Assembly: GCA_015061495.1 (NCBI GenBank) | Contig: SUWL01000018.1 | Span: 1 to 41,340 of the forward strand | Source: Lentisphaerota bacterium | GTDB taxonomy: Bacteria; Verrucomicrobiota; Lentisphaeria; Victivallales; Victivallaceae | Length of the DNA: 41,340 bases | Reading direction: 5' to 3' | Shown here: positions 22,497 to 25,315 of the stretch, piece after piece | Position numbering within the stretch: position 1 is the first letter of the stretch | How the letters are laid out: the number at the start of each line of letters is the position of its first letter | Translations under genes and position numbers: made by a program | Notes under the pieces: model-generated | Told to the model about the DNA's origin: nothing | Databases searched by the model: none | What the model saw: only the letters and a program-made list of their open reading frames with translations

Positions 22497-24020
22497 ATGA
22501 GAGAACTTGCAAAAAAATACCATGATGGGCAGATGCGCCGTGGAGAACCTGCTGTACCTTATATTGTTCATCCGCAAAATATTGTTGATATGCTTGCCGC
22601 ATGTGGGGAACCGGCGGAATCTTCTGCGGTATCCATTGCATGGGGACATGATCTTCTGGAAGATACGGTCGTATCCGAATCGGAAATCATCCGAGCCGCC
22701 GGTCGAGAGGTATTGGATGCTGTCAAATTGCTGACTTGTCCCAAAGATATGGACAAGCAGGAATATTTACGAAACATTGCAGCTTGCGGCAATCGTAATG
22801 TCCTGCTGGTTAAACTAGTTGACCGTATTTGCAATGCCCGTGACTTTATCCGGTTGAATGGGGCACTTTATGCATTGCGTTATTTGCGCAGCGCAGATTG
22901 TTTGCTTCCGGCGCTGAAGGTGTTTACTGGAGACAGAGTTGTTGAAAATATGCTGGTCAAACGTGACGAACTTTGCAAGTCGCTCCGCAAAGAATCTTAT
23001 CGGGATGCGGTTCGCGGTTGTTTGCTTGGGGGAGCCGTCGGCGACGCACTCGGTTCTCCGGTTGAATTTATCGATCTGCGTGGAATCAAATTGCTTTACG
23101 GAGATTTGATTTCTGATTATGTGGAATATTCGGATGGTACCGGAGCGATTACAGATGATACTCAAATGACCATTTTTACCGCAGAAGGATTGTTGAGGGC
23201 AAAAGTTGGTGAAAAATCGGGGAAGGAATGCAATTTGACCGAAATGGTGCATCATGCTTACTTGCGCTGGTTGAAAACTCAATATCAGCAGCCGGATGCT
23301 CCGGAAAATATTATAAACAGCGGATGGCTTGTCGGGCAAGAGCCATTGCATCGTGTGCGGGCACCGGGATCTACCTGTATCGCCGCGTTGAATTGCAATT
23401 CAACATCGCATCTGGCAGATAACAACAGTAAAGGCTGCGGAACAGTAATGCGCATGGCTCCTGTCGGATTGTGTTTGGAACCGGAAGCTGCATATCGGTA
23501 TGGGTGTGAATTCTCGGCAATCACTCATGGACACCCATCCGGAGTCACCGCCGGAGGCGCGTTCGCGATGCTGATTTCTTACCTGCGGGATGGAATCAGA
23601 CTGGATGAGAGCTTGGACTTGGTGGAAAAATATTTGTCATCCAGAGATGATGCAGGAGAAACTCTGGCGGCAATCCGACACGCCCGTTATGCTGAATCAG
23701 TCGCTGAACTCGGCGAGGGATGGATTGCCGAAGAGGCTCTTGCTATCGGTATTTTCTGTGCGCTTCATCATCAGTCGGAGTTTAAAACCGGGGTGCTTGA
23801 TGCAGTCAATATTGTTGGCGACAGTGATTCTACCGGTTCGATAGCCGGTAATATTCTCGGCGTTATCAATGGGGAGCAGGCTATCCCGGAAGAATGGCGC
23901 CGTAATTTGCGTGAATACGATATTGTCAGTCAGGTTGCCGATGATTTAAGTATTGGTATCCAATTGGCGTCGGATGGAAGTGTCAGCAGTACGTGGCAGG
24001 ATAAATACCCCGGGTTTTGA
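22497..24020 (+). CDS. Fusion of Mesh1/SpoT-like HD domain and ADP-ribosylglycohydrolase
   Basis: 507 residues. Residues 1-155 are an HD hydrolase domain of the RelA/SpoT-Mesh1 type: RRGEPAVPYIVHPQNIV (metal H25), WGHDLLEDT (H51 D52, E55 D56) and KLVDRICNARD (D109, N113). Those are the residues used for (p)ppGpp 3'-pyrophosphate hydrolysis. Residues about 168-500 are an ADP-ribosylglycohydrolase (DraG/ARH) domain: RGCLLGGAVGDALGSPVE, TDDTQMT (219-225), HGHPSGVTAGG and GDSDSTGSIAGN (441-452), with all magnesium-binding Asp and Thr positions kept. This domain removes ADP-ribose from proteins, nucleic acids or small molecules. Both active sites look intact. The gene is monocistronic and flanked by unusual non-coding DNA. 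The HD call could also fit another nucleotide substrate. Confidence 0.9.
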   Translation: MRELAKKYHDGQMRRGEPAVPYIVHPQNIVDMLAACGEPAESSAVSIAWGHDLLEDTVVSESEIIRAAGREVLDAVKLLTCPKDMDKQEYLRNIAACGNRNVLLVKLVDRICNARDFIRLNGALYALRYLRSADCLLPALKVFTGDRVVENMLVKRDELCKSLRKESYRDAVRGCLLGGAVGDALGSPVEFIDLRGIKLLYGDLISDYVEYSDGTGAITDDTQMTIFTAEGLLRAKVGEKSGKECNLTEMVHHAYLRWLKTQYQQPDAPENIINSGWLVGQEPLHRVRAPGSTCIAALNCNSTSHLADNNSKGCGTVMRMAPVGLCLEPEAAYRYGCEFSAITHGHPSGVTAGGAFAMLISYLRDGIRLDESLDLVEKYLSSRDDAGETLAAIRHARYAESVAELGEGWIAEEALAIGIFCALHHQSEFKTGVLDAVNIVGDSDSTGSIAGNILGVINGEQAIPEEWRRNLREYDIVSQVADDLSIGIQLASDGSVSSTWQDKYPGF

Positions 24021-24064: not shown

Positions 24065-24072
24065 CATAAGTT
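24065..24072 (+). repeat. 8-bp target-site duplication, left copy
   Basis: CATAAGTT, repeated exactly at 24569-24576, directly abuts the outer end of the left terminal inverted repeat of the element at 24073-24568. Confidence 0.7.
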
Positions 24073-24097
24073 GCCTCATCGACGGTTTGAGACAGAA
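24073..24097 (+). repeat. Left terminal inverted repeat
   Basis: The strongest part is TCATCGACGGTTTG (24076-24089) followed by A and GACAGAA. The right copy reads the same in reverse complement apart from positions 2, 3 and 18. Confidence 0.8.
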
Positions 24098-24111
24098 TAT
24101 CACAATGATTT

Positions 24112-24340
24112 TCGTCTGCCCCGTCTGCTTGATCGCGCGCGAACGGCTTTGCAGGGAGGCGCTTACGCCGCCCCTGCATCCGGCGCCTGCTGAAGCAGGA
24201 TTTACTCGGGTTTGCACGCACTTCCCGGCGCGGTTGCCGCACCCGGGGGGAGTTCCCGCCGTACTCCCTTGGGGCTCGCCTCGCGTCTTGCCACCTCTGT
24301 CCTGCAACCGTTTGTATGCATGCTTTATGACACAGACGAT
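24112..24340. other. GC-rich folded core of the MITE-like element
   Basis: Nested inverted repeats are visible: TCGTCTG/CAGACGA (24112-24118 with 24334-24340), then AACGG..TGCAGG with CCTGCAACCGTT (24142-24155 with 24302-24313). Inside these lie local hairpins: TGCAGGG/CCCTGCA (24150-24156 with 24172-24178, containing GGCG/CGCC), CCTGCT/AGCAGG (24186-24191 with 24194-24199), and CCCGG/CCGGG (24224-24228 with 24243-24247) enclosing GCGG/CCGC. Some pairings are mutually exclusive. The composition differs sharply from the AT-rich flanks. The core could be a structured RNA, a folded single-stranded DNA substrate, or cargo. Confidence 0.6.
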
Positions 24341-24543
24341 TTGATGCGGTCACTATTATGCCACGCTTCTGATTTCTCCGTAATTCTCCGTGCTCATCCG
24401 TACGAACCGTCAGTTCTCAATAATAAAGGCAAGCCAATCCCGTGTTGAGTGTATCCGTGAGAAAAGGCTTTTTTTTTACTTTTTGAAGAAATATAATTCT
24501 GTTTTCAATCCCGTTTCGCAGTTTTTTATATTTTTCTGCGTAT

Positions 24544-24568
24544 TTCTGTCACAAACCGTCGATGAACC
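24544..24568 (-). repeat. Right terminal inverted repeat
   Basis: The segment TTCTGTC, A, CAAACCGTCGATGA (24544-24565) mirrors the left end with one mismatch in 22, and with two more mismatches in the three outermost bases. Confidence 0.8.
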
Positions 24569-24576
24569 CATAAGTT
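24569..24576 (+). repeat. 8-bp target-site duplication, right copy
   Basis: Exact second copy of CATAAGTT, abutting the right inverted repeat. The reconstructed empty site would join 24072 to 24577. Confidence 0.7.
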
Positions 24577-24646: not shown

Positions 24647-25315
24647 TTATTTGGAACGTCTTACTCCAATGGTAAAAAGACGCTCTCCTGCATTGGAAGG
24701 CAGAGAAAATACCGGGGTGTTCTGCCAGGAAAAATTTTTCATTTCAGCGAGTTGTTGACTTTCTTCCGCAGCTTGAGCAGGAGTTTTGTAAAAGATGAAT
24801 TTGCCATTGTGTTTGGGGAAATTCGATGCTTCTTTACAAATTTTGGGGGAAGGGGCAACTGCCCGGGCGGTAACTATATCAAAGCGGTATTGAAATTCTT
24901 TGCGGCAATTTAATTCAACAGATCTGCCGTGGAGTGCTGTCAGATTATTCAACTGAAGCAATTGGGCCGCATCGGCGACAAATTTGATTTTTTTGCCGAT
25001 AGAATCAATTGCCGTGATTTGCAGATTTGGAAATGCTGCTGCCAACACTAAACTTGGGAAGCCCGCTCCGCATCCGATGTCAGCAACAGATAATTTGCCG
25101 GAGGCAATTTCCGGAAATACAGTTGCGATGCTCAAGGAATCGGCAATGTGTTTAAAATAAAAATCATCGACCGAAATCAAGCGGGTCAAATTGACATGTT
25201 TATTGCACTCGGTCAGATACTCATGCAGGGCGATGCATCGGCTGATAAATTTATCCGGATCAGGTATGAAAACGGAATGGATAAAAGAAATAAAGTCGGC
25301 AGGAGGAGTATTCAT
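24647..25315 (-). CDS. rsmG: 16S rRNA (guanine-527-N7)-methyltransferase RsmG
   Basis: 222 residues, normal length. RsmG methylates G527 of 16S rRNA using S-adenosylmethionine; its loss is known to give low-level streptomycin resistance. The SAM site VADIGCGAGFPSLVLA, the acidic loop ITAIDSIGKKIKFV and the ARAVAP motif are present, with the N-terminal helical segment LTRLISVDDFYFKHIADSL typical of the family. The ATG at 25315 overlaps the stop of the upstream lipoprotein gene by 4 bp. Commonly found near gidA/parAB; here it ends a run of minus-strand genes that begins with hydF. Confidence 0.94.
   Translation of the reverse strand: MNTPPADFISFIHSVFIPDPDKFISRCIALHEYLTECNKHVNLTRLISVDDFYFKHIADSLSIATVFPEIASGKLSVADIGCGAGFPSLVLAAAFPNLQITAIDSIGKKIKFVADAAQLLQLNNLTALHGRSVELNCRKEFQYRFDIVTARAVAPSPKICKEASNFPKHNGKFIFYKTPAQAAEESQQLAEMKNFSWQNTPVFSLPSNAGERLFTIGVRRSK

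Follow-up and report, generated by a model that had tools for sequence, protein, structure and literature searches.

A putative ISL3-family MITE carrying a truncated multi-hairpin repeat as passenger in a Lentisphaerota genome

MITEs derived from ISL3 elements are a class already published. PMC11448079 describes, in Microcystis aeruginosa, a 187-nt ISL3-related MITE whose ends match those of an ISL3-family IS, and both the MITE and its IS are reported there with 8-nt direct repeats. Two further systems offer parallels to the element studied here. As described in PMC4133298, TIMEs, which are Tn3-derived mosaic non-autonomous elements, use miniature ends to mobilise the unrelated DNA between them; our element shares this layout, but its ends are of the ISL3 and not the Tn3 type and its cargo is a non-coding hairpin repeat. 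In Streptococcus pneumoniae, the BOX, RUP and SPRITE repeats form clusters in which non-coding sequences crowd together and lie nested one within another (PMC10969869). The likeness to those clusters is one of description, and the hairpin family in Lentisphaeria covaries between species.

The window, by which we mean the whole 41,340-nt stretch of DNA analysed, is contig 48 of a 2.67-Mb assembly in 123 contigs that is 89% complete. The element lies intergenically, with two convergent genes either side. The features of the locus were as follows.

22497-24020, plus strand: ADP-ribosylglycohydrolase gene, flanking the element
24065-24072, no strand: left 8-bp direct repeat CATAAGTT, target-site duplication (from the sequence)
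24073-24097, plus strand: left terminal inverted repeat of ISL3 type, GCCTCATCGACGGTTTGAGACAGAA (from the sequence and comparison of ends)
24073-24111, plus strand: IS-derived left segment, common to the short MITE copies and resembling the IS left end (inner boundary at 24111 approximate, placed by eye)
24148-24230, plus strand: cargo modules A-B of the hairpin repeat (nhmmer E = 2e-9, profile positions 6-97 of 221)
24151-24177, plus strand: cargo A hairpin
24182-24199, plus strand: cargo B hairpin
24232-24309, plus strand: cargo module D, partly decayed, with a hairpin at 24232-24261 and a closing arm at 24299-24309
24315-24353, plus strand: cargo module E
24378-24411, plus strand: cargo module F (CCGTA repeats)
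24461-24477, plus strand: GAAAAGGCT9 tract between cargo and right segment, with a shorter version in the C2 composite
24502-24568, plus strand: IS-derived right segment (query positions 438-504), common to copies in sister species
24544-24568, minus strand: right terminal inverted repeat of ISL3 type, GGTTCATCGACGGTTTGTGACAGAA on the minus strand (from the sequence and comparison of ends)
24569-24576, no strand: right 8-bp direct repeat CATAAGTT, target-site duplication (from the sequence)
24647-25315, minus strand: gidB-type rRNA methyltransferase gene, flanking the element

A first-pass annotation had reported perfect 8-bp direct repeats around 25-bp inverted ends, and the repeats and ends were exactly as it described: the inner ends, GCCTCATCGACGGTTTGAGACAGAA and the reverse complement of GGTTCATCGACGGTTTGTGACAGAA, were identical at 22 of 25 positions. 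It had also held that this juxtaposition was hard to explain by chance. When all 4,482 pairs of identical 8-mers lying 60-3,000 bp apart in the window were compared, the CATAAGTT pair enclosed the best inverted 25-mers and was a clear outlier, the runner-up matching at only 15 of 25 positions. The GC-rich core that had been noted at 24112-24340 was borne out, with 64% G+C as compared with 47% for the window, 51% for the whole element, and 41% and 40% for the remaining parts of the element. The element was also said to lack a transposase, and the three open reading frames of 85-105 codons that overlap the core gave no Pfam match at E 0.001. The core alone folded only modestly better than shuffled sequences (z -1.97; 5 of 200 shuffles equally good). 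The whole 496 nt folded well (z -4.45; 0 of 100 shuffles as good), in good part because the ends pair. gidB was located in 31 of the 34 genomes of the genus, and 30 loci were taken (G001 was left out), one of them the window's own. The ADP-ribosylglycohydrolase gene was absent near gidB in all 29 loci from relatives, within a flank of up to 1.5 kb; gene order here is not conserved.

The ends recur throughout the genus. Allowing up to three mismatches, a 17-nt end motif was found at 42 sites in the element's own genome, as compared with 7 for a reversed control, and with at most one mismatch it was present in 20 of the 34 genus genomes. A pattern scan of the GTDB collection recovered 55 stretches, all with titles naming Lentisphaerae, Lentisphaeria or Victivallaceae. 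The records with matching ends are MAGs, and several titles mention sheep colon, roe deer cecum or horse faeces. Left ends begin GCCTCT, with TTCATAATGATTT further inside, and right ends begin GGTTCA, with ACGCAGAAAAATATAAAAA inside. This difference was consistent, as in an IS.

Matches to the ISL3 transposase (PF01610) were present in 10 of the 34 genus genomes and were mostly fragmentary. Two complete ISs with the same ends, as had been predicted for a helper, were found in relatives. The first (L098/L119, contig C257 of G013) is 1,362 bp long and has both ends with a 404-codon frame between them, whose product matches PF01610 at E 1.1e-64 and scores 289 bits against NF033550 (at L119; cut-off 180 bits). 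The second (L214) is 1,361 bp long and likewise has both ends and a 404-codon frame (PF01610 E 5.9e-65; NF033550 282 bits). Both frames are stop-free, with ATG at the second codon. In the complete IS, the left-type end adjoins the 3' end of the transposase gene. A single end in G044 (L118) adjoins a 413-codon ISL3 frame near a contig end (NF033550 264 bits). No such end motif was seen at the unfragmented ISL3 transposase copy of G009, which lies at a contig end.

The 89% complete assembly of the element's own genome yielded no intact ISL3 transposase. That genome does carry a 642-bp internal-deletion copy of an ISL3 IS with both ends (C109, at L123:1099-1740). Its 165-codon frame joins N- and C-terminal transposase remnants in one frame, matching positions 3-82 of the ISL3 transposase profile and positions 184-240 of the Pfam DDE domain. 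Two-ended copies numbered 21 and ranged from 114 to 1,362 bp, counting one row per copy and dropping the shorter of two pairings at L045 (22 before this step). The own-genome loci contained 32 unique ISL3 ends.

Because its ends equal those of complete ISL3 ISs, the window element is to be read as an ISL3-derived MITE. The first-pass description of it as MITE-like fits its matching ends, its lack of a transposase, its length of 496 bp and the multiple copies. Judged by its sequence, it is a non-autonomous ISL3-family MITE, and mobilisation in trans by the IS transposase is putative. It shares with ISL3-family ISs (PF01610/NF033550) the transposase family of the same-ended ISs and, in the window copy, the 8-bp duplication; it differs from them in that this copy has no transposase and in that the clade prefers sites after terminator T-tracts. 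Like the Microcystis MITE described in PMC11448079, it is non-autonomous, has 8-nt direct repeats, belongs to a mainly intergenic set and can form a stem-loop; the sequence of the Microcystis end is given as GGCTCTTCG, and the right end in the window begins with GGTTCATCG. In contrast to the MITE of that description, copies in Lentisphaeria are of differing lengths, clear duplications are missing from the two-ended copies other than this one, and in this species the copies carry a foreign multi-hairpin repeat.

The first-pass annotation had proposed a search for other copies with different 8-bp flanks. Matching 8-bp flanks were found in the window copy only, 1 of the 21 two-ended copies. In the other 20, likeness of the flanks was not above that of shuffled pairs, with 61 matches as compared with a mean of 67.2, and allowing 1 nt of slack gave 78 matches as compared with 81.1. 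A pair matching at 8 of 8 positions arises in 18% of shuffles in that test because many flanks are T-runs; CATAAGTT is not one. The complete ISs also lack the duplication, their flanks agreeing at 3 of 8 positions (L098) and 4 of 8 positions (L214). Both show a different arrangement, in which the right end is followed by 8 T-rich nucleotides and then by a second, truncated left end (from 1523 onward in L098; from 1563 downward, on the opposite strand, in L214). When 54 right ends were compared, only those of the two complete ISs had this arrangement. It is compatible with insertion at a distance of 8 nt from an older end, in the manner of duplication-spaced tandem insertions.

The flanks point to a target preference. 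Left ends stood directly after a T-run in 24 of 56 cases, as compared with 1-3 of 56 at eight shifted positions, and directly after an A-run in 10 of 56 (1-6 at shifted positions). Right ends had a T-run in the sense of the element in 22 of 54 cases (1-8 at shifted positions) and a run in the opposite sense in 8 of 54 (1-7). End types were assigned by rule in these counts and in those of module proximity given below, a few diverged ends being probably misassigned; different end rules gave 30 of 60 left ends at a T-run. The 36 nt upstream of the T-run folded well against mononucleotide shuffles (mean z -2.51; 13 of 24 below -1.5), and a control 60 nt further out did not (mean z 0.14; 1 of 24 below -1.5). 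Together, the T-runs and upstream folds indicate that this ISL3 clade often inserts behind intrinsic terminators, with one orientation prevailing. A tRNA gene lay within 160 nt upstream of 5 of 56 left ends, and four of these genes end 7-9 nt from the element. Left ends after terminator T-tracts were seen, for example, at L171, L122, L131, L088 and L036, and several stood at tRNA 3' ends. The window copy is not at a T-run. PMC11702846 describes DNA with an ISL3 element that was inserted, with an 8-bp duplication, inside an rRNA-operon terminator of Enterococcus faecium, the mechanism being called uncharacterised there; that insertion may be parallel to the T-tract preference of our clade.

MITEs typically consist of little beyond their ends, and the first-pass annotation had set this element apart from them. 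Here it was right, since the core derives from a hairpin repeat that forms a family in its own right. BLAST split the element, its ends matching short MITEs and query positions 80-420 matching arrays elsewhere in the same genome. The whole element gave 59 partial matches in its own genome, the core included, and a 660-nt array query gave 72, several of them at contig ends. Tandem arrays of the hairpin repeat were found at L007:1-660, L005, L014 and L009, with units of about 313-346 bp. Since several arrays lie at contig ends, the assembly may break in longer ones. Divided by eye, the arrays consist of modules A (tandem hairpins of about 48 bp), B, C (a long hairpin), D, E and F. The window core has the composition A-B-D-E-F; module C, which stands before D in array copies, is absent from it. 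Elsewhere in the genome the modules occur without ISL3 ends, often as arrays. Among the matches listed, module F, the CCGTA repeat, extends to a larger number of genus genomes than do the other modules, and it may be a separate short repeat.

The nhmmer profile of the repeat was built from 11 copies in five species (G043, G048, G016, G011 and G000). The unit of modules A-D is about 205-225 bp long, has several hairpins and is intergenic. Loci of the repeat include L285, L286 and L288 (G043), L281-L284 (G048), L289-L291 (G016), and L027, L005 and L014 in the element's own genome. G043 and G048 each contain blocks that are near-identical within the genome, at many intergenic sites. A covariance model of modules C-D was built from 12 copies of 4 species and then applied to other species. 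When 137 genomes of the order were searched, it had matches in 14; of these, 11 belong to this genus, represented by 34 genomes, and 3 to a second genus of the same family. Positive genomes had 3-26 matches each, more than 100 overall, some of the counted matches being antisense or partial. In a phylum-wide draw the model matched 8 of 387 genomes, all of the same family. Copy numbers are rough, since at most 28 candidates per genome were scored in the first survey and at most 9 in the second. At the gathering score, Rfam gave no match in the window; when the element and 15 loci were searched at E up to 1 or 5, only sub-threshold matches appeared (E 0.19-0.96). A literature search found no description of these hairpin repeats, which is weak evidence of absence. 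These comparisons identify the GC-rich core as a worn, truncated copy of a multi-hairpin intergenic repeat that is unrelated to the ISL3 element.

The hairpins covary. The alignment comprised 44 copies, 43 of them distinct, and 96.1% of its cells at paired positions could pair, as compared with 73.7% in shuffles; double-sided changes occurred in 192 cells, as compared with 55.3 +/- 5.2, and in 18 of 23 pairs, these pair counts resting on a structure-fitted alignment that leans towards that structure. Further pair types numbered 30 and were not above shuffles (29.9). The covariation score of 0.520 fell to 0.101 or less when partners were slid by 1-3 columns. Eleven of the 44 rows are training sequences of the model, and L305 is identical to one of those; the 42 loci searched were selected from loci with earlier matches. 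Antisense hits of the model, which arise because the hairpins are near-palindromic, were kept out of the count by an E-value cut. As the outer stem was misaligned in a plain MAFFT alignment of 19 copies, RNAalifold recovered from it no more than 11 pairs, 4 of them showing double changes.

The covariation in the C-D hairpins and the stable fold of the whole element might suggest a functional structured RNA as cargo, with a helper to move it; a mobile structured RNA was one of two options, beside folded DNA, that the first-pass annotation had raised. In RNA, G-U pairs are expected to be tolerated more than A-C. The 967 pair cells comprised 923 Watson-Crick pairs, 6 G-U, 11 A-C and 27 others, so that G-U was no commoner than A-C; the numbers are small, and they point to DNA hairpins, or palindrome-preserving repair, rather than RNA. 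Together with the absence of any Rfam match above threshold, and with a window copy that has no module C and a partly broken module D, this makes the structured-RNA proposal extremely unlikely, and we do not retain it.

Palindromic, intergenic, Watson-Crick-paired repeats are also what a REP/BIME-like family moved by a Y1 (RAYT/IS200) transposase would look like, and Y1_Tnp matches were present in 11 of the 34 genus genomes. Of the 11 genus genomes with the C-D repeat, 3 had such matches, as compared with 8 of the 23 others, which is no association in these incomplete assemblies, and units of about 205-225 bp with several hairpins also speak against this origin. We regard it as very unlikely.

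How the cargo and the ISL3 ends came together was assessed from their spacing. In the element's own genome a module lay within 600 bp inside 10 of 32 ISL3 ends (at 9 loci, the window contributing two) and within 600 bp outside none of the 32. All ten module-bearing ends are among the 42 sites found by the end motif alone. In relatives, modules within 600 bp of ISL3 ends numbered 0 of 79, inside and outside. The left junction, GATTTTCRTCTG joined to YCCCGTCYGCTTGCA, recurs with variation at C2, C6, C10, C14 and C78, and significant modules follow beyond it at C2, C10, C14 and C78, not at C6. Some short own-genome copies, such as C99 and C98, keep both core-flanking sequences and lack the core. 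C2 is the best second composite, with 83% identity over query positions 9-411 and the right end missing. Both ends and the core were seen together only in the window copy. These patterns suggest that capture of the cargo probably took place in this lineage, that the cargo then probably spread with the ends, and that it likely moved as a unit. One capture inside a short ISL3 MITE, followed by spread of the chimera and erosion, is the simplest history.

The order of events could instead be reversed, with the hairpin repeat as the primary mobile element that inserted itself into a resident ISL3 MITE, the composite never moving whole. This would be consistent with the model matches in 13 other genomes, 3-26 in each (up to 28 candidates scored per genome), with the near-identical copies within G043 and within G048, with the lack of any repeat within 600 bp of the 79 ISL3 ends of relatives, and with the single composite seen with both ends. 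It accounts poorly for the confinement of modules to the inside of ISL3 ends (10 of 32, as compared with 0 of 32 outside) and for the left junction shared by several loci, where the spread of a single chimera is a simpler account than independent insertions that repeatedly hit one point. We therefore judge it unlikely.

We consider it highly probable that 24073-24568 is an ISL3-family MITE with a truncated hairpin repeat as passenger, moved in trans into 24065-24072, and that the chimera spread after an ancestral capture. An ISL3 transposase supplied in trans would recognise both 25-bp ends; the DNA between them would have been moved into 24065-24072 with duplication of 8 bp, a move that we infer from the anatomy of the element. 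Earlier, in an ancestor of the species, a hairpin repeat would have come to lie midway inside a short deletion derivative of an ISL3 element, and the nested composition is seen in the element. Keeping its left junction, the chimera would then have reached several loci, probably via transposition, with ends or modules since lost from many copies. The hairpins would be pre-existing dispersed repeats that hitch-hike, probably as DNA, and nothing indicates a function for them inside the window element.

The MITE class is known, and what is new is the captured, covarying hairpin repeat. Here one non-coding repeat has been captured by another, and the copies form a graded series of complete IS, internal-deletion copy, short MITE, cargo MITE and eroded remains. 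That the ISL3 clade prefers terminator T-tracts (left ends, 24 of 56; shifted positions, 1-3 of 56) amounts to a target rule, and bench experiments can test it. The hairpin family is a more interesting by-product than the MITE itself. As a tentative and rather doubtful proposal, the core may represent a family, not described before, of mobile DNA elements with multiple hairpins, found so far in one Lentisphaeria family. These would spread within genomes in single-stranded or cruciform form via a recombinase, and the T-tract-homing ISL3 elements of the same hosts would pick them up and so provide a second route. With more than 100 model matches, strong covariation and no known protein, the family makes the mover of such structured repeats a testable question.
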